IMG/VR virus record: IMGVR_UViG_3300048592_001375
Location: 1-37,456 of that record
Strand: one strand, 5' to 3'
From: a virus
Length of the DNA: 37,456 nt
In this document: positions 1 to 37,456 of the stretch, piece by piece
How positions within the stretch are numbered: the stretch's first letter is position 1
Layout of the letters: every line of letters begins with the position of its first letter
Position numbers and translations under genes: made by a program
The notes under the pieces: model-generated
The model's input: the letters and a program-made list of their open reading frames with translations, nothing else
Told to the model about the DNA's origin: nothing
Database searches by the model: none

Positions 1-123
1 AGCCGCAAGACGCTGGAACGTGCCGCGCGACTCGTGCGCGGGTTCATCCGTGTTGACGGAGAGATTCAGGAGTACACGGCGCAAGAATGGGTACGAGTGC
101 CGTTCCGTGATCTGATTGGATAA
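1..123 (+). CDS. 3' end of an unknown cassette gene
   Basis: The window opens inside an open reading frame whose last 40 codons are visible, ending in VRVPFRDLIG and a TAA at 121-123. The stop codon lies inside the first box (GGATAAC) of the palindromic site that follows, exactly as the stops of the next genes do, so this is the gene of the cassette to the left. I recognise no family in the visible residues. The array therefore continues beyond the left edge. Confidence 0.6.
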   Translation, partial: SRKTLERAARLVRGFIRVDGEIQEYTAQEWVRVPFRDLIG

Positions 124-177
124 CGCTTCGGTTCACCCGGGCGTACTCGCCTCGGGTGCAACCGATTTGTTATGCCG
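118..177 (+). repeat. attC-like palindromic site 1
   Basis: An imperfect palindrome of about 60 bp. It starts GGATAAC (118-124) and ends GTTATGCC (169-176). The inner arms are CGGTTCACCCG (129-139) and CGGGTGCAACCG (153-164), which pair completely except for one extra C in the second arm. Box, arm, short loop, arm, box is the layout of integron attC sites. The extra base is in the second half; canonical attC carries it in the first half. Confidence 0.6.
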
Positions 178-196
178 CTTTTTGGAGGAGGGTTAA

Positions 197-487
197 ATGA
201 CCAGTGCATCCAAGTCTATGCCGAATCCCGATCATTTCGGACGCCGGAATTGGCCGTGGCCCGGCCATCCTGGCAGCCAATTGGCACTGTGGCACGGACT
301 CTACCAGAAGATTAGAGAGCTTCGCGACGGACCCTACAAAGAGGATCCCGATGCCTTGTGGCAATCGCTGGAAGCCCTCACGTATCATCTGCGCGACCTG
401 GGCGAACAACTGGACAACTTGTGGCAGGCCCGCCGCGAAGAAAACAGACGTGCCCGTGATTCCGTGCCCGTGGATCCGCCGGCATAA
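197..487 (+). CDS. Cassette protein, unknown function (96 aa)
   Basis: The ATG at 197 has a strong GGAGGAGGG ribosome binding site at 183-191, 10 bp after the end of site 1. The TAA at 485-487 lies in the GGCATAAC box of the next site. The protein is 96 aa, hydrophilic, with a Trp-rich N-terminal third and a helical, charged C-terminal half (a likely coiled coil from about residue 40 to 85). It ends VPVDPPA, and the last five codons resemble the ends of two other genes in this array. No known family is evident. The placement, not the sequence, makes it a cassette gene. Confidence 0.65.
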   Translation: MTSASKSMPNPDHFGRRNWPWPGHPGSQLALWHGLYQKIRELRDGPYKEDPDALWQSLEALTYHLRDLGEQLDNLWQARREENRRARDSVPVDPPA

Positions 488-572
488 CGTCCAGGTGTGA
501 CCGGGCGGCGGCCGGTTGCTTTCCATTTTGGTCGACCTGATCCGCCGCTCCGGTCGACACGTAGTTATCCGG
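482..572 (+). repeat. attC-like palindromic site 2 (long form)
   Basis: A 91-bp imperfect palindrome from GCATAAC (482-488) to GTTATCC (564-570). Inner arms are GTGTGACCGGGCGGCGG and CCGCCGCTCCGGTCGACAC. The second arm has two extra bases seven positions apart, the same spacing as in site 5. The variable loop holds TTCCATTTTGG. Length is inside the known attC range. Confidence 0.58.
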
Positions 573-573
573 C

Positions 574-819
574 TTTTCCGGAGTAAGGATTTTACTTGAT
601 GGGGGCTAAGCCGTGGCTGATGCCCTCCGGTCGGCAGCGTTAGAGCGCCCACCCGTGCTCGGCGGGCTGCATGTCGCGAAAGCGAACCGTGACCGTGATG
701 AACGGCACGCGAAGTGACTGGTAAAGGCAGGTGGGACCCATGCAGTGAGGGGAGATCTGCGAAGCCCGGCTGGCCACGGGAGCCGGGATTTTTCCGTGTC
801 CGTGTTTCGTGCATTGTCC
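574..819 (+). other. Cassette body without a convincing ORF
   Basis: This stretch lies between two palindromic sites and so is a cassette-sized unit. The longest plus-strand frame with a ribosome binding site (GGAGTAAGGA, then ATG at 599) closes after 14 codons at 643. A 26-codon GTG frame (745-825) ends in the next site but has no convincing binding site. The sequence is G-rich with several short complementary blocks (for example CCCGGCTGGCCACGGGAGCCGGG at 765-787 contains self-complementary parts). It may carry an RNA or a promoter, or be a decayed gene; I cannot tell. Confidence 0.35.
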
Positions 820-878
820 GGATAACGACCAAGGTTCACCCGGCGGTACTCCGCTCGGGTGCAACCGTAGTTATGCCG
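820..878 (+). repeat. attC-like palindromic site 3
   Basis: A 59-bp site from GGATAAC (820-826) to GTTATGCC (870-877). The arms GGTTCACCCGG and CTCGGGTGCAACC enclose the loop CGGTACTCCG, with one extra C in the second arm. It is nearly identical to site 4 and closely matches site 1. Confidence 0.6.
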
Positions 879-902
879 TTTTTTTAGAGGGAGGTTTGAT
901 CC

Positions 903-1289
903 GTGACATACATTCCGATTCCCGTCGCCGTGGCCCATCAGATCGGCGACCGTCACAAGAAAGACATTGTGCTGATCGTCGGTTGGGACGAGGACAGCAA
1001 CAAGACCAACATCGTCACGTGGGGCCGTGAGCCGCCGCAAAAGGAAGCGGCTGCCAAGGCCGGCGACACAGTCGTCAAGCAGCTCGGTCTGCTGATGGAT
1101 GGCCACGCGGACGTTCACGAGGACTTCCGCCGCGAAGGCGAAGCGGCCCTGGAGGTGGACAGGCTACGGTTGCTGGCCGTGGAACTGTGGAACGTCAGAG
1201 GTCCCTATTCGCTCAGTGTCGAGGACGAGGAGAAGATGCTTGCGCGGTTCCCGTGGCTCCGTGCCGTGTCCGTGGATTCGCCGGCATAA
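903..1289 (+). CDS. Cassette protein, unknown function (128 aa)
   Basis: A GTG at 903 preceded by GAGGGAGG at 887-894 starts this 128-aa protein, and its TAA (1287-1289) is inside the next palindromic site. It is soluble and acidic. The N-terminal half (MTYIPIPVAVAHQIGDRHKK, then an IVLIVGWD strand and WGREPPQKEAAAKAGDTVVKQLG) looks like a compact alpha/beta fold, the type of small protein common among phage early genes. It ends VSVDSPA, matching the end of the cassette gene at 197-487. No family is identified. Confidence 0.68.
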   Translation: MTYIPIPVAVAHQIGDRHKKDIVLIVGWDEDSNKTNIVTWGREPPQKEAAAKAGDTVVKQLGLLMDGHADVHEDFRREGEAALEVDRLRLLAVELWNVRGPYSLSVEDEEKMLARFPWLRAVSVDSPA

Positions 1290-1341
1290 CGACCGCGGTT
1301 CACCCGGCGGTACTCCGCTCGGGTGCAACCGTAGTTATGCG
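1283..1341 (+). repeat. attC-like palindromic site 4
   Basis: A 59-bp site from GGCATAAC (1283-1290) to GTTATGC (1334-1340). Its arms GGTTCACCCGG / CTCGGGTGCAACC and its loop are the same as in site 3. One extra C lies in the second arm. The upstream stop codon is in the first box. Confidence 0.6.
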
Positions 1342-1364
1342 GTTTTTTCAGGAGGATTTGTGGC

Positions 1365-1574
1365 GTGGCTAGATACCGATTGACCGTGTTGCCAGAGCAG
1401 GGGAACGATTCACCAGAGGTCTACTTCATCGAGTCTCGTAAAACGATCGACCGATCCGTGCTGTCCGTGGCTGGTTTGCTGCTTGATGGCGGGATTGAGA
1501 CGCAAGTCGTGTTGGATCAACTGCCGACAGCCGAGTCCTACGTGTCCGTGTGCGAACTTGGACGCTCGGCATAA
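1365..1574 (+). CDS. Cassette protein, unknown function (69 aa)
   Basis: The GTG at 1365 has AGGAGG at 1350-1355 with 9 bp spacing. The nearby GTG at 1360 is in another frame that closes after a few codons, so 1365 is chosen. The 69-aa product begins MARYRLTVLPEQGNDSPEVYF and looks like a small beta-rich protein. The stop (1572-1574) is in the next palindromic site. No family is recognised. Confidence 0.58.
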   Translation: MARYRLTVLPEQGNDSPEVYFIESRKTIDRSVLSVAGLLLDGGIETQVVLDQLPTAESYVSVCELGRSA

Positions 1575-1659
1575 CGAACAAGGATCACCCGGTCGCCGCG
1601 GGTGACTTTCCATTTTTTGCGACCCGATCGGCGACTCGGGTGCATCCGTTGTTATGCCG
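1569..1659 (+). repeat. attC-like palindromic site 5 (long form)
   Basis: A 91-bp site from GCATAAC (1569-1575) to GTTATGCCG (1651-1659). The arms GGATCACCCGGTCGCCG and CGGCGACTCGGGTGCATCC pair with two extra bases, seven positions apart, in the second arm. The loop contains TTCCATTTTT, as in site 2, so sites 2 and 5 form a long subtype. Confidence 0.6.
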
Positions 1660-1681
1660 TGTTTGGTGTGGAGGAAATCCC

Positions 1682-1912
1682 GTGGAGTGCCCATTAGGCC
1701 AAGCGTGTGCGCTGCCAGAGTGTGACCCGTGGTGCCATTACGATTTGGAGAATGGCAACGCGACGAACCCGCTGGAGTTGAGATGGTGCCCCGAGTGTGA
1801 CCGCGAGACCAAGCACCGGCGGCTATCCGTGTCGTGTGTCGAATGTACCGTGTGCCTGGAGACGACAGCGGACATCGTGTCCGTTCCGTGTCCCGTGGAT
1901 TCACCGGCATAA
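1682..1912 (+). CDS. Cys-rich cassette protein (76 aa)
   Basis: The GTG at 1682 follows a GGAGG at 1670-1674, about 23 bp after site 5; the frame is open further upstream but only through the palindrome, so the internal GTG is preferred. The 76-aa product has eleven Cys, arranged as CPLGQAC, CDPWC, WCPEC and CVECTVC, which suggests one or two small zinc-binding knuckles. It ends CPVDSPA. The TAA at 1910-1912 is inside the half site that follows. Function is unknown. Confidence 0.55.
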   Translation: MECPLGQACALPECDPWCHYDLENGNATNPLELRWCPECDRETKHRRLSVSCVECTVCLETTADIVSVPCPVDSPA

Positions 1913-1929
1913 CTACTGATTAACCCGCC
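1906..1929 (+). repeat. attC-like half site 6 (first half only)
   Basis: GGCATAAC (1906-1913) and then TGATTAACCCG resemble the first box and first arm of the complete sites. No second arm or GTTATGC follows; the 10-bp repeats start at 1931 instead. This looks like the truncated right edge of the cassette array. Confidence 0.5.
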
Positions 1930-1930
1930 T

Positions 1931-1987
1931 TGACCGAGACTGACCGAGACTGACCGAGACTGACCGAGACTGACCGAGACTGACCGA
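1931..1987 (+). repeat. Iteron array: 5.7 copies of TGACCGAGAC
   Basis: Five exact 10-bp direct repeats (1931-1980) and a sixth partial copy (1981-1987) whose last base is the A of the next gene's ATG. A 10-bp period puts every copy on the same face of the helix. The core octamer TGACCGAG recurs four times inside the downstream gene. I infer binding sites for the encoded winged-helix protein, serving autoregulation or replication initiation. No normal ribosome binding site fits in front of the ATG. Confidence 0.75.
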
Positions 1988-2877
1988 TGGAACGGCAACT
2001 GAGTCTAAATCTTGGGACCGAAGAAGAGCGAGTTGCGAGCGTGCGGACCTACCTGCAGCCAGTCGAGCTGGCACCGCGTCAAGTCGCCGCAGTGGCCCTG
2101 ATTGTGGGCTGTGGCGAGGCGATCCAGGTACTTGGTCAGCCCGCTCGCCGTTGGTGTGCCGACAAGGCCACCATCTCTGAAAAGGCCAAGAAATACGGGC
2201 TAAATTGCTCTGGGAACACGTTCCTGCGGGCGGTCGAAGAGCTGGAGTTTCGGCGAATTGTGGGTGTCCTGCGGAACACGCGGCCGTGGACTTACGCGGT
2301 GTCGTTGGCGGCGCTGGCGAAAGTGGAAATGCGACGCAACGATCCGATTGCGGCGCTGGAGTCGTTGCCTTGCTTCGGGGGCCTAGAGGGGGGTGACCGA
2401 GGCGAATCTCGGTCACCCTCGGTCACCCTCGGTCAGGGCGCTCGTGACCGTGAAAGAATACATACTCAAAATCCGTGTCCTACCGTGTACCGTGCTTCCG
2501 TGGACGTCACGAGCGGCGGCGGATTGGCTGACCGAATGCAGCGGCCGTGGGATCGGGCAGCGGGATTGTGTGACGAGGACCTGGTCCGCGCCGTGGTGGA
2601 GGGCGACCTGGATCCGATACGGCGGCTGTGGGAAGAGGCGAAGGTGCTGGAGTGGGTGGGCTGCAATCGTGCGGTTAGCGATGACGAGACGCTTCGATTC
2701 CTTGCGATCGTCCACCACTGTGCGACGTCGCCGGGGATCAATCAGAGCCGCATGGGCGTGCTGGTCAATCGCGTCAAGCGTGGGCTGGACGCGACCAAGA
2801 CGCGGCAGGCATCGGACCAATGGGCGGCGGCGGTGATGGCTCGGCGGCACAAGCATGCGGAGGCAGCGGCAAGATGA
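1987..2877 (+). CDS. Winged-helix protein, candidate phage replication initiator
   Basis: A 296-aa protein. Residues about 10-110 hold an alpha-helical region with a likely winged helix (KATISEKAKKYGL, then NTFLRAVEELEFRRIVGVL). A low-complexity linker follows at about 135-165, and a second helical domain at about 185-290 (VRAVVEGDLDPIRRLWEEAK, then LRFLAIVHHC). The linker is encoded by four copies of the same octamer that forms the upstream iterons. N-terminal DNA-binding domain, origin repeats inside the gene, C-terminal partner domain is the layout of lambda O-type initiators; sequence homology to O is not evident. The ATG at 1987 is the only good in-frame start but overlaps the repeats and lacks a clear binding site. 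The gene ends in an ATGA overlap with the next. Confidence 0.6.
   Translation: MERQLSLNLGTEEERVASVRTYLQPVELAPRQVAAVALIVGCGEAIQVLGQPARRWCADKATISEKAKKYGLNCSGNTFLRAVEELEFRRIVGVLRNTRPWTYAVSLAALAKVEMRRNDPIAALESLPCFGGLEGGDRGESRSPSVTLGQGARDRERIHTQNPCPTVYRASVDVTSGGGLADRMQRPWDRAAGLCDEDLVRAVVEGDLDPIRRLWEEAKVLEWVGCNRAVSDDETLRFLAIVHHCATSPGINQSRMGVLVNRVKRGLDATKTRQASDQWAAAVMARRHKHAEAAAR
2394..2435. repeat. Intragenic iterons, candidate replication origin
   Basis: TGACCGAG occurs at 2394-2401 on the plus strand, and its complement CTCGGTCA at 2408-2415, 2418-2425 and 2428-2435, the last three with an exact 10-bp period. The first and second copies face each other. It is the same octamer as the upstream array at 1931-1987. 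An origin inside the initiator gene is known from lambdoid phages; the assignment here is inference. Confidence 0.6.
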
Positions 2878-3132: not shown

Positions 3133-3324
3133 ATGCTGTTACCTCGTCAGTCGCCGCCGGTCGATCATCGTGAGCGTGATCCTGCGGTTCCCCAGCGGGG
3201 CCGGGGGCCTCGGCATGTGATCGTCCGGGCTGCGGACGGGCGGGCGATGTTGCTGGGCGAGGCCGTGTGTCGAGGGGAAGTTGGCGGGCGGAACGTGGAG
3301 GGTTCGGCGAACGGCGGGCGTTAG
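3133..3324 (+). CDS. Small basic protein ending in a repeat (63 aa)
   Basis: The ATG at 3133 has GAGGGGG at 3120-3126. The 63-aa product is rich in Arg, Pro and Gly (MLLPRQSPPVDHRERDPAVP). Its last codons (ANGGR and the stop) are supplied by the palindromic repeat that begins at 3304, so the original C-terminus may have been lost. The large protease gene at 17902-19326 also ends in ANGGR from the same repeat family. Function is unknown. Confidence 0.42.
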   Translation: MLLPRQSPPVDHRERDPAVPQRGRGPRHVIVRAADGRAMLLGEAVCRGEVGGRNVEGSANGGR

Positions 3325-3370
3325 CCCGTCCGGTGTGTGTACCCGCCGGGCTAACGCCCGGGGTTCGCCT
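3304..3370. repeat. REP-1 palindrome, paired copy
   Basis: A forward unit (core GGCGGGCGTTAGCCCGTC) is followed by a diverged inverted unit (GGGCTAACGCCCGGGGTTCG). Each unit is itself a palindrome. At least eleven units of this family are scattered over the window at intergenic positions. Confidence 0.85.
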
Positions 3371-32952: not shown

Positions 32953-33828
32953 TCATTTGCCACCTGGGCGGAACAACAGGTCCACGGCGTGCTGGCGGGG
33001 GACGATGCGTGGGTCGAGGTAGGCGAGCGTTACGGAGCGGCTGCTGTGGCCGAGCAGCTCGGTGGCGTTGCCGCCCGCGGCTTCGAAGTGGCTGGCGACA
33101 CTGCGGCGCATGCGGTGGAACTTACAGTGGCGATTGGCTGGCAAGCCGGCCTGGGAAAGCAGCTTGGTGTAGCGGTTCCACAGGTACGTCCTGCAGTACG
33201 GCCACGGGAAGATCGCTTGCCGCGCCGGCAGTTGCATTGCCTGCAGGGTGGCGACTGTGTCGGCGGCCAGCTTGTACAGGCGATCGTGCCGTTTCCCCTT
33301 ACGCAACTCGGCTGGTACCAGGATGTAGCCGCCTGCCAAGTCTGCGTGTGCCCATTCAAGATCGCGGACCGCTCCGATTCTTTCGCCGGTGTCCCAGCAG
33401 ACGAGATGCAGCGCAGTCCACCAGGCCGCGGCCGCCACGCCGCCGATGGTGCCCGGGATGCGTTCGCAGGCGGCCAACAGTTTGGCGATCTGGGCGGCCG
33501 TCCACGCCTGGGGGATTCGCTCGGGTTCCACCTCGAGTGCGACGTCGGGCCATTCCTGGAGGTATCCCTTCCTGCAGGCGAAGCGCCACATAGCGAGGAG
33601 GTTGGACCGCTCTTTGTTCACCGAAAACGGGCTGCGCGGGATGTGTCGGTAGTGATCGAGGAAGCGATTGACCGTCAGGTCGGTTAGGTCCGCAAGCGTC
33701 GCCGGCCTGGTCAGATACCGGGAGAACGTCCGGATCGTCGTCAGGTACAGCCTGCGCGTGTTGTCCGATCTGGAACGGAGGAAAAGGGGAGCGAACGTGT
33801 CCTCGTAGAAGTTCTGCAGCCGAATCAT
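32953..33828 (-). CDS. Tyrosine recombinase (phage integrase)
   Basis: A 291-aa integrase starting MIRLQNFYEDTFAPLFLRSR. The N-terminal SAM-like domain covers about 1-100 and the catalytic domain 105-291, with Arg150 (DTGERIGAV), His238-Arg241 (HRMR), His261 (LLGHSS) and Tyr270 (TLAYLD). Length is somewhat short, because an arm-binding N-terminal domain is lacking. It is adjacent to a tRNA 3' fragment at 33897-33951, the expected place for the integrase of the left-hand prophage. It is not of the integron IntI type, since the IntI-specific insert is not seen. Confidence 0.9.
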   Translation of the reverse strand: MIRLQNFYEDTFAPLFLRSRSDNTRRLYLTTIRTFSRYLTRPATLADLTDLTVNRFLDHYRHIPRSPFSVNKERSNLLAMWRFACRKGYLQEWPDVALEVEPERIPQAWTAAQIAKLLAACERIPGTIGGVAAAAWWTALHLVCWDTGERIGAVRDLEWAHADLAGGYILVPAELRKGKRHDRLYKLAADTVATLQAMQLPARQAIFPWPYCRTYLWNRYTKLLSQAGLPANRHCKFHRMRRSVASHFEAAGGNATELLGHSSRSVTLAYLDPRIVPRQHAVDLLFRPGGK

Positions 33829-34196: not shown

Positions 34197-35432
34197 TTAC
34201 TTATCCCGACCGGAACGCTCCTGCTCATCAGCGTCCAGGTGCACGAAATTGATTTGCTCCATCCGCCGGAGGGCATCCTTACGCCCCAGGTGCCGGTAGT
34301 GCTCGACCATCTTCGAGTCGGCGTGGCCGACCCACTCCCGAATCTCACCCTCGGAGGCGCCGCCCAGGAAAGCTTGACTGACGAAAAAGTGCCTGAAACT
34401 GTGCAGCCGGCCATGCTCGAAGCCGATTTCCCCATCCGGTGTCGGGAAGTTTTCGGCGAGAGGTTCGATCACGTCGCGAATGAACACGGTCAGCACGTTC
34501 CGAGGACGGAGTTGGCCTCCACGCTCGGCGTGAAAGACCCGTCCGTCCATACCGCGTGTGATGGTCGCCAGAACCTCGCGCAGCCGAGGATGGATCGGGA
34601 TTATGCGCGACCGCTTGCCCTTGGTCGTTCTCATCGTCCCGGCTAGCTGCTTTCGGCGGCTCGCCCGCTCGTCGGCTACCGTGATCACGTTGTTGGCCAA
34701 GTCGACGTCGCACCAGCGCAGGCCAGCCAGCTCTCCGATTCGCACGCCCAAGTGAGCCAGCGCGAGGATGACGTGGGCCAACCACACCAGCCCCGAAGTC
34801 GATTTGCAATACTTGATCATGGTCGCCACCTCGATACGGGTATAGCAGTACGTGTCGGTGCCCGCGGGCTTGGACAGGGGGTACGTGATTTTGGCCTCAG
34901 CAGGGAGTTTCCCGTTTTCTATAAGCCACTGGTTCACCGACTTTAGCACGGTCAATTCCAGGTAGACGGTCCGGTATGCGTATTTCTTTTTCTTGTTCGT
35001 GGTCAGCCAGTTGCCATACCGCTCCAACACGGACTTGTCGAATCGGCGCCAATCAGCGATTCCGTGCTTCGCGCAGAACTCGGCGTGCTTGTCTCGGACG
35101 GCACGGTAGCGTTTGAGTGTGCCGGGTGACACGCCGCCCATGACGGGGCTCCGGCCGCAGAAGTCGATGAAAGCCTGCCACCCCTGCTGGATGGTCACGG
35201 CTTGGGATGGTTTCGCGGTTTCCGGCTGGGCAATGCCCAGCTTGGCCGCCATGCGCCGGTCGAGGGCCTTCAGGCGTTTGATGGCCTCCTCGCGGTCTTT
35301 TGTTGCCAGCGAGTGTTTTCCTAGGTTCCGTTGGGTGCCGCGTCCATCGGCGTAGAAGACTCCGGCGCGGCAAAAGAGCTTCCACGTGAAGTACTCGCAG
35401 GCGATCGGGGGTTGCTTGGGGCTACGAGGCAT
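34197..35432 (-). CDS. Tyrosine recombinase of a second element
   Basis: The ATG at 35432 overlaps the end of the excisionase-like gene by 11 bp and has GGAG upstream, so the pair is co-translated. The 411-aa product has an N-terminal basic region (MPRSPKQPPIACEYFTWKLF), a SAM-like core-binding domain (about 80-175) and the catalytic domain with Arg231 (GVRIGELAG), His344-Arg347 (HSFR), His370 (VGHAD) and Tyr379 (EHYRHLG). This longer type with an adjacent AlpA-like protein is common on planctomycete genomic islands. It is not closely similar to the integrase at 32953-33828. Confidence 0.92.
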   Translation of the reverse strand: MPRSPKQPPIACEYFTWKLFCRAGVFYADGRGTQRNLGKHSLATKDREEAIKRLKALDRRMAAKLGIAQPETAKPSQAVTIQQGWQAFIDFCGRSPVMGGVSPGTLKRYRAVRDKHAEFCAKHGIADWRRFDKSVLERYGNWLTTNKKKKYAYRTVYLELTVLKSVNQWLIENGKLPAEAKITYPLSKPAGTDTYCYTRIEVATMIKYCKSTSGLVWLAHVILALAHLGVRIGELAGLRWCDVDLANNVITVADERASRRKQLAGTMRTTKGKRSRIIPIHPRLREVLATITRGMDGRVFHAERGGQLRPRNVLTVFIRDVIEPLAENFPTPDGEIGFEHGRLHSFRHFFVSQAFLGGASEGEIREWVGHADSKMVEHYRHLGRKDALRRMEQINFVHLDADEQERSGRDK

Positions 35433-35727
35433 TGTCGGATGTCTCCTGTGATGTGTCGGTGGGTTGCATCCAGTCCGGGCAGCGGCCGGAGAGGTGTTGG
35501 CGAGATTCTGGTGCGGGAGCGGAAGGGGCATTCTGTTCAGAAGCGACTGCTGCGGCACAACGCTCGATGGCGTCGGGCGGAAAAAGCAGACGTCCGCCTG
35601 GACCCGTTGGTTGGAAGTAGAGGAGCTTGCCCTGCCGTTTGAGACGGTGTAGAGTCGCGGAGGACAGGCGACTATAGACGCTAAGTTCTTTGATGGTCAG
35701 GAGTTTGACGGCAGCCTCTTCCGCCAT
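35422..35727 (-). CDS. AlpA/MerR-type HTH excisionase-like protein
   Basis: A 101-aa protein starting MAEEAAVKLLTIKELSVYSR; the segment LLTIKELSVYSRLSSATLHRLKRQGKLLYFQPTGPGGRLLFPPDAIER is the HTH_17/AlpA excisionase fold (winged helix, about residues 9-57). The C-terminus is low-complexity. It overlaps the integrase gene, so it likely controls direction of integration or integrase transcription for the right-hand element. Confidence 0.85.
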   Translation of the reverse strand: MAEEAAVKLLTIKELSVYSRLSSATLHRLKRQGKLLYFQPTGPGGRLLFPPDAIERCAAAVASEQNAPSAPAPESRQHLSGRCPDWMQPTDTSQETSDNAS

Positions 35728-36210: not shown

Positions 36211-36274
36211 TGGGAAATGTCTGCGTCCGCCACTTCTCCGGACGCCTCACCCTCGATAGGAGGTGATCGTCGCG

Positions 36275-37456
36275 ATGCCAGAGTCATCAGAATTGCCCCC
36301 GCAACACGAGCAGCCCCAAGACATCGGGCGACCGCCAAGCCAGCTCCATGACCTGCCGCTCCAATTCCGCTGGGAGGTAACCCGTCGGCACCCGTACTAT
36401 CTGGTTTTCTGGCTCAATGCTCTCCTTCACCGTCAGGGGCAGACAGGCGATCCCGATCAAGAACGGCTCCGACATGTGGCAAGCATGATCTTGAACAGCA
36501 TCGGAGTGACCGGCGAGCCGGTTGACCCCGGCATTCCATTTGAAAAACTAGGCGACATCGATCCCATTTTTCTGTCTGGGGCGATCCAGCCTTTGACACT
36601 ACGTGCCATAGCCACGATGTTGATTAGCGCGATGCCGGCGGCTGAGCGAGCTGCGTTGGGCGCATTTTTCATGTCGTCGGGCGACGCCCAATACGCAATA
36701 GACGGTGATGACTGGAGACGCTCTGCCCAGGCAATGCGGGCGATGGATCGATTGGCGCGAGTGCCTAGCGCGAGCTTAGACTCCTATCCGGATGCGCCCT
36801 TGTTCTACATCCACATGGGAGCGTCCCAGCGCACGATAGTCCATGACGTCGAGGACTTCGTTCGTCGTTGGAAGCGGCGTCATGGCATAACTGAACGGCG
36901 ATTCCACACCGAGAAGCTACCGCTCTATCTGCAGGTTTGGGACTTGCGGGAGGGGTGGACCGGTGACCGCTACGATCGGGCCCGTGAGCAGACGCTGAAG
37001 CAAATCTCCCGTCAGTTCAAGGTATCAGTCTCAACTACAGCCAGCCGGTACAATTCAGCATTTCAGCTAATCACCGGACACGATTTCTCGATGGACCTTT
37101 GGCGACGATTGTTGGGACCGCTGAAATTGAGTGGGTTATTTGTGGACGCAGAGGCGATACTCGCAGCTCCGATGCGGCGTCGGCTTGCGTCGCCGATTCG
37201 CCGGGAAGTACCGGACTCCGTCGTCACCCCAAAAGTGCAACGGGCGCACTCGACCGGACTGGTGGAGAACGAGAGCGCCCGCAAAGATGGTGGTCTGGAG
37301 TCCCTCGAAGTGTTGTGGGACGCAGAGGATCTGATGGCGCGAGGATTGTCGGACGAAGAAATTGCAGAGCGTCTGGGAGTCTCACTTGTGGAGATCACCT
37401 ACATCCGGGACCGAACGGAGGAGTTTCGTCAGATCCAGCACGGCCGCAACGAATAA
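36275..37456 (+). CDS. Protein of unknown function with a C-terminal HTH
   Basis: ATG 36275 has AGGAGGT at 36257-36263 with 11 bp spacing; the GTG at 36263 overlaps that site. The 393-aa product has an N-terminal motif LQFRWEVTRRHPYYLVFW, which resembles the start of DUF6499/transcriptional-regulator-type domains found beside integrases in planctomycetes. A middle helical region has VHDVEDFVRRWKRRHGI and QTLKQISRQFKVSVSTTASRYNSAFQLI. The C-terminus has a further HTH (DLMARGLSDEEIAERLGVSLVEITYIRDR). It reads divergently from the AlpA/integrase operon and may regulate it. The stop is at the last base of the window. Confidence 0.72.
   Translation: MPESSELPPQHEQPQDIGRPPSQLHDLPLQFRWEVTRRHPYYLVFWLNALLHRQGQTGDPDQERLRHVASMILNSIGVTGEPVDPGIPFEKLGDIDPIFLSGAIQPLTLRAIATMLISAMPAAERAALGAFFMSSGDAQYAIDGDDWRRSAQAMRAMDRLARVPSASLDSYPDAPLFYIHMGASQRTIVHDVEDFVRRWKRRHGITERRFHTEKLPLYLQVWDLREGWTGDRYDRAREQTLKQISRQFKVSVSTTASRYNSAFQLITGHDFSMDLWRRLLGPLKLSGLFVDAEAILAAPMRRRLASPIRREVPDSVVTPKVQRAHSTGLVENESARKDGGLESLEVLWDAEDLMARGLSDEEIAERLGVSLVEITYIRDRTEEFRQIQHGRNE

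Follow-up and report, generated by a model that had tools for sequence, protein, structure and literature searches.

Organization of the locus

The window analysed here is IMG/VR record IMGVR_UViG_3300048592_001375 (37,456 bp, positions 1 to 37,456). At its left end, hairpin sites alternate with small genes up to a half site next to a presumed replication origin. In the list below, R2 is a covariance model trained on known attC sites and R1 a covariance model built from the phage sites. Complete sites measure 57-58 or 89 bp with the 7-nt boxes counted.

118-175, minus strand (canonical orientation): attC-type site W1; R2 39.3 bits, E 1.2e-7; fold z about -5.5; predicted crossover on the plus strand at 123/124
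197-487, plus strand: cassette gene, 96 aa, no family
482-570, minus strand: attC-type site W2, long loop, extrahelical T-N6-G; R1 65 bits (by construction), missed by R2; predicted crossover 487/488
488-825, plus strand: cassette unit without a clear gene; no fitting ORF of at least 60 aa
820-876, minus strand: attC-type site W3; R2 26.7 bits; predicted crossover 825/826
903-1289, plus strand: cassette gene, 128 aa, no family
1284-1340, minus strand: attC-type site W4; R2 30.4 bits; predicted crossover 1289/1290
1365-1574, plus strand: cassette gene, 69 aa, no family
1569-1657, minus strand: attC-type site W5, long loop; R2 26.7 bits; predicted crossover 1574/1575
1682-1912, plus strand: cassette gene, 76 aa, Cys-rich (zinc-finger-like); short match to an ORF of contig L037
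1906-1929, minus strand: half site, attI-like in position, consisting of a simple hairpin-less box where the array canonically starts, read from the sequence; similar half site in virus L004
1931-1987, plus strand: five iterons TGACCGAGAC, period 10, read from the sequence; presumed replication origin
1987-2877, plus strand: initiator-like gene, 296 aa, with inverted iteron copies at 2408-2436; role assigned from position and iterons
32953-33828, minus strand: tyrosine recombinase, phage integrase (not IntI); PF00589; XerD-like below cut-off; 78% identical in virus L030
33880-33953, no strand: att site, a tRNA 3'-end fragment common to the window and L030 by sequence comparison
34197-35558, minus strand: second tyrosine recombinase (not IntI); PF00589; IntI model score 25 bits (cut-off 265)

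All four complete plus-strand genes stop exactly on the TAA of a left box (487, 1289, 1574 and 1912), and an open frame entering from the left edge likewise stops on a left-box TAA (123). For each of the four, a GGAGG-like site lies downstream of a right box, and most genes start just past that box. In G+C content by codon position, the cassette genes follow the pattern of the phage genes. A preliminary description of this DNA had placed five complete sites and one half site at 118-1929, with each stop codon in the first box and each binding site after the second. The coordinates, folding and arm pattern of the sites, together with the gene ends and the GGAGG-like motifs, bear out all of this.

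Cassette genes have a common 3' end, ccgtgtccgtggattcnccGGCATAA (462-487, 1264-1289 and 1886-1912), giving proteins that end in V(S/P)VD(S/P)PA, and the methyltransferase of L004 has a similar C-terminal end. The cassette without a clear gene (488-825) was considered as a structured RNA and rejected: it is not unusually stable, and no Rfam family matched it at gathering score. The pentamer CCGTG occurs 39 times on the plus strand of positions 1-2600, where 5.7 are expected from the rest of the window. It is found on one strand only, in all reading frames, and spans the cassettes as well as the initiator gene, clustering immediately ahead of each attC left box; it is also abundant in the array regions of L004 and L030.

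The array ends at the same half site in the window and in L004, and in the window this boundary lies beside the five 10-bp iterons and the initiator-like gene. The layout of positions 1931-2436 resembles that of lambda O, five iterons being followed by an initiator-like gene with inverted copies inside; the origin of L004 is arranged alike, with iterons of another sequence. The initiator-like gene matched no family, and neither viral contigs nor isolated phages yielded a relative. When the half-site pattern was searched for in viral contigs, it was found in L004 and in two AT-rich contigs without sites, these two being judged chance matches. Searches of genome contigs gave only Thiodiazotropha, where there is a real array, and one Verrucomicrobiota stretch, which was rejected as an array, its genome being without any R1 match.

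Phage context

HK97-type late genes (portal, capsid and terminase) and the two tyrosine recombinases lie downstream of the initiator-like gene; a search with the terminase returned one distant contig. In L030, late genes are followed by the integrase, att, early genes and the array. Joining the ends of the window gives this order too: the integrase and att come first (33-34 kb), early genes extend to 37.4 kb and the array runs from 0.1 kb; the array is therefore placed in the phage early region. It had been proposed that the array belongs to the phage, lacks an integrase and abuts the replication genes on its right, and each of these points holds: the order in L030 supports the first, no IntI is present in the record (best score 25 bits), and the iterons and initiator-like gene follow the half site.

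The tRNA fragment had also been read as a sign that a prophage reaches further left. This is not established: the fragment is the att site adjoining the integrase gene (32953-33828), and a permuted phage genome would account for the record as well as a prophage would. No complete tRNA was found at this site. Joining the record directly end to end forms no continuous gene, and closure through the gene at 36263-37456 was dropped, as that gene stops with TAA at the last base. The att site lies between two different tyrosine recombinases. Elsewhere in the window, positions 3306-3369 form a near-perfect, REP-like palindrome of 64 bp with the core GGGCGTTAGCCC.

How should the array be classified? 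It is a CALIN, with five attC sites (at least two are called for) and no integron integrase. It is not a complete integron, which comprises an intI gene and an attI site; intI is absent from the record.

Identity of the hairpin sites

Are the hairpins attC sites? Folded as single-stranded DNA, all five are far more stable than their dinucleotide-preserving shuffles, with z from -2.9 to -6.8 and no more than 2 of 200 shuffles folding as well; W2, at z about -3, has compensatory changes in its L arm, and the L arms of the sites covary. The conserved-arm pattern has three matches in the window, compared with 0.00 in shuffles. Each site has two extrahelical bases, six bases apart and both on the 3' arm when read in gene orientation (5/5 sites), with T-N6-C in W1, W3, W4 and W5 and T-N6-G in W2. 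For excision, T-N6-G placed to one side of a folded site is an efficient geometry, and C is usable as the second base (PMC3053210); with both extrahelical bases on a single arm and six apart, the sites have the geometry best excised by IntI enzymes (PMC3053210). The outer boxes, GTTATGC and GTTATCC, depart from GTTRRRY / RYYYAAC, which counts against the cassette-exchange reading, and sites of phage TJE1, Thiodiazotropha and Shewanella also have GTTAT. The site pairing first described is upheld as regards the hairpins, whose folds beat the shuffles; the "one or two extra bases" are two per site, and in four of the five sites the end boxes of one hairpin, said to be complementary, do not pair past ATAAC/GTTAT.

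R2 was trained on attC sites of class 1 plasmids, phage TJE1, the Thiodiazotropha chromosome and Shewanella phage M16-3, and on zero window sites. It is a home-made model, not the published attC model, and its alignment keeps the two extrahelical bases in register. R2 detects W1, W3, W4 and W5 (E 1.2e-7 to 2e-4) and both sites of L004, the only other match in that 75 kb being a weak one on the reverse strand of W5; it also detects one site of L030. On known arrays it finds untrained sites too, including Vibrio sites and three TJE1 sites, and five array-free records gave no match. That R2 misses W2 is a point against the attC reading. In the reverse test, R1 matches known attC sites of Thiodiazotropha and TJE1. 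Because an independent covariance model matches them, the window sites are, on sequence grounds, of attC type.

Polarity of sites and genes

The extrahelical bases lie on the 3' arm of the window sites and on the 5' arm in known arrays, both being read in the direction of the genes. R2 likewise puts the phage sites on the strand opposite their genes, in all seven cases at E 0.05 or better (three viruses: the window, L004 and L030), whereas about 30 sites of control arrays at the same cut-off are all on the gene strand, with none reversed. The usual, not strictly defining, criterion that genes run with attC thus gives 0/7 here and about 30/30 in controls. Judged by the extrahelical bases and the model, attC sites consistently oppose their genes in four viruses. 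Box pairing does not enter into this reading; it was discarded as an indicator of polarity, since either polarity predicts the same pairing. The canonical attC and cassette layout that had been described is therefore right in the type of site, as R2 shows, and wrong in its orientation.

From the polarity it follows that the phage unit is attC, ribosome-binding site, gene and TAA, with the predicted crossover directly behind the stop codon. Neither a host nor a forward-polarity source of such cassettes was found in the searches made, which is a point against the favoured reading. The direction of genes is an unsafe basis for orienting attC sites, and the polarity predicts clearly which strand should recombine in the standard attC x attI assay.

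How do known systems compare? Cassettes of class 1 (aadA, aadB and qac) are like the window in their two-arm hairpin, two extrahelical bases, outer-box crossover and stop codon near the box; unlike the window, their genes are on the attC top strand and the array adjoins intI1 and attI1. In the chromosomal array of Thiodiazotropha (L005), the L arms are nearly the same as in the phage sites, the box is GTTATGC and the closest site has the same extrahelical pair; unlike the phages, it is an ordinary forward array, its genes running with their attC sites, and its genome encodes a full IntI (475 bits). Treponema integrons (PMC3607928) also have an atypical orientation, although there it is the intI gene that is turned, and the parts of that report consulted do not describe genes opposing their own attC.

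Phage CALINs as such are already known. Qi et al. 2023 (PMC9892861) reported 17 in phages; of the six phage attC sites that they tested with IntI1, five recombined. Their examples (TJE1 of Tetrasphaera, P12002L of Polaribacter and PH101 of Pseudoalteromonas) are likewise integrase-less attC arrays with small genes, often DNA methyltransferases. The TJE1 sites match the models made here and, unlike those of the window, lie on the strand of their genes. Qi et al. (PMC9892861) did not report a consistently reversed polarity, a boundary common to unlike phages or a position at an origin. In the open-access papers searched, no report was found of consistently reversed-gene arrays or of a common boundary at a phage origin.

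Other viruses with the same site family

Three further viruses (L004, L030 and L002/L003) have the same site family and polarity with other genes. In L004 (contig 3300037458_001567), two near-identical sites flank a DNA N6/N4-methyltransferase, which is followed by further small genes, the matching half site, its own iterons and an initiator-like gene. The families of its terminase and portal differ from those of the window, and hardly any proteins are common to the two save a short methyltransferase-like segment. A search with the gene-end pattern recovered only L004 again. L030 (3300020222_002583) has four sites, all reversed; it has the att block in common with the window as well as the integrase, and its portal and terminase are of lambda type, the packaging genes being unlike those of L004. 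The third of these viruses is represented by two contigs, L002 and L003, in which one site is good and another decayed. IntI was not found in any of the virus records, most of which are fragments.

Contig L036 combines a window-type integrase with L004-type head genes and has no attC match. Given this combination, the phages resemble mosaics drawn from a single population. Over 9374 bp L030 and L034 are identical; they then diverge, at a breakpoint that is neither an attC nor an empty site. The viral contigs L034 (at 14876) and L035 (at 9374) are identical over 9374 bp, with an abrupt divergence in the early region; L035 has an array further on and L034 shows none before the contig ends.

Probable cassette exchange and its alternatives

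An integron circle joins the boxes to the left and right of one gene, while the two boxes of one hairpin derive from neighbouring cassettes. In the arrays, boxes flanking a gene have a mean matching run of 5.8 of 7 bases, compared with 3.0 of 7 for boxes of the same hairpin. When boxes are shuffled across arrays, 0.4% of trials reach the gene-flank value by run and 1.2% by matches, and every shuffle equals the same-hairpin value; permutation within arrays, where few arrangements are possible, gives p 0.10, which is not significant alone. Pairing across genes and not within hairpins is characteristic of cassettes that moved as circles and argues against a fixed phage stem-loop. Among the records compared, none paired one phage with differing cassettes, and exchange is therefore something we infer. 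Near-identical sites do surround other genes in viruses whose packaging genes are unlike. The condition that the preliminary description had set for refutation, a lack of attC model matches together with an identical gene order in related phages, came out against the stem-loop alternative.

It is likely, then, that the window holds an integrase-less cassette array in the phage early region, with genuine attC-type sites, cassettes exchanged as circles and a reversed pool common to phages. Could the hairpins instead be relics, derived from attC and now serving as terminators or RNA elements between early genes, with no recombination left? A T run follows each right box, terminator-like matches number 6 where 2.2 are expected, no IntI was found and the sites precede ribosome-binding sites. 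However, most of the terminator-like matches are in the loops of the long sites and not at the T runs. A selected terminator or leader hairpin would give a pairing of boxes opposite to that observed, and neither the extrahelical bases nor their spacing, kept in all intact sites of several viruses, is needed by a terminator. We regard loss of recombination as unlikely.

It is very improbable that real cassettes are moved by a phage recombinase in place of IntI. The candidate would be the integrase at 32953-33828, the one clear protein common to the window and L030. Yet it adjoins the common att site with its tRNA 3' end, as an ordinary phage integrase does, and scores as Xer-like; moreover, L036 has the integrase and no attC match, and it was not found in the L004 fragment. 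A phage-specific intergenic stem-loop unrelated to integrons, like the start-associated sequences of mycobacteriophages, was offered in the preliminary description as the main alternative and would suit the grouping of all sites in a single early region, upstream of ribosome-binding sites and adjoining a replication gene, but it is already largely refuted and scarcely credible: an independent attC model matches, the extrahelical bases are of attC type, boxes pair across genes, and near-identical sites surround different genes in unlike viruses.

A possible mechanism and its meaning

Under the favoured reading of exchanged cassettes, a host IntI would most likely act in trans on the folded strand whose extrahelical bases are in the recombining geometry, here the gene strand. 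Crossover would fall directly after each stop codon (GGCATAA/C), and exchange would therefore leave each gene intact. The units of attC, ribosome-binding site, gene and stop codon would be read with the phage early operon, and reversed cassettes may have been selected because the operon reads in that direction. Phages would have favoured cassettes of reversed polarity by selection and would hold a pool of them in common; docking would take place at a fixed half site next to the origin, where replication would expose single strands of the adjoining array. The enzyme, present-day activity, the half site's part in docking and the cause of the polarity are what we infer in this scheme. A further proposal is possible, though rather doubtful: that phages unlike in their capsid and packaging genes keep an exchange locus of their own, with a fixed attI-like half site by the origin, reversed cassettes whose genes the early operon would read and a phage-specific pool shuffled by host integrases during co-infection or lysogeny.

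Most earlier discussion has treated phage cassette arrays as fragments of bacterial integrons that phages acquired. The common site family, the boundary at the origin and the consistently reversed polarity suggest that some phages vary their early genes by cassette exchange, and a DNA methyltransferase among these genes may counter host restriction.

Two minor observations concern other genes of these contigs. In L037, 61-bp repeats were rejected as another array and are repeated gene starts: three short genes (14105, 14495 and 16082) have a common start region of about 61 bp, consisting of a ribosome-binding site and an N-terminus like MTDLERDLLTHCG, with different remainders. CsrA-like regulator genes can be read from the sequence in L004 (5329-5514, minus strand) and L002 (2575-2755).
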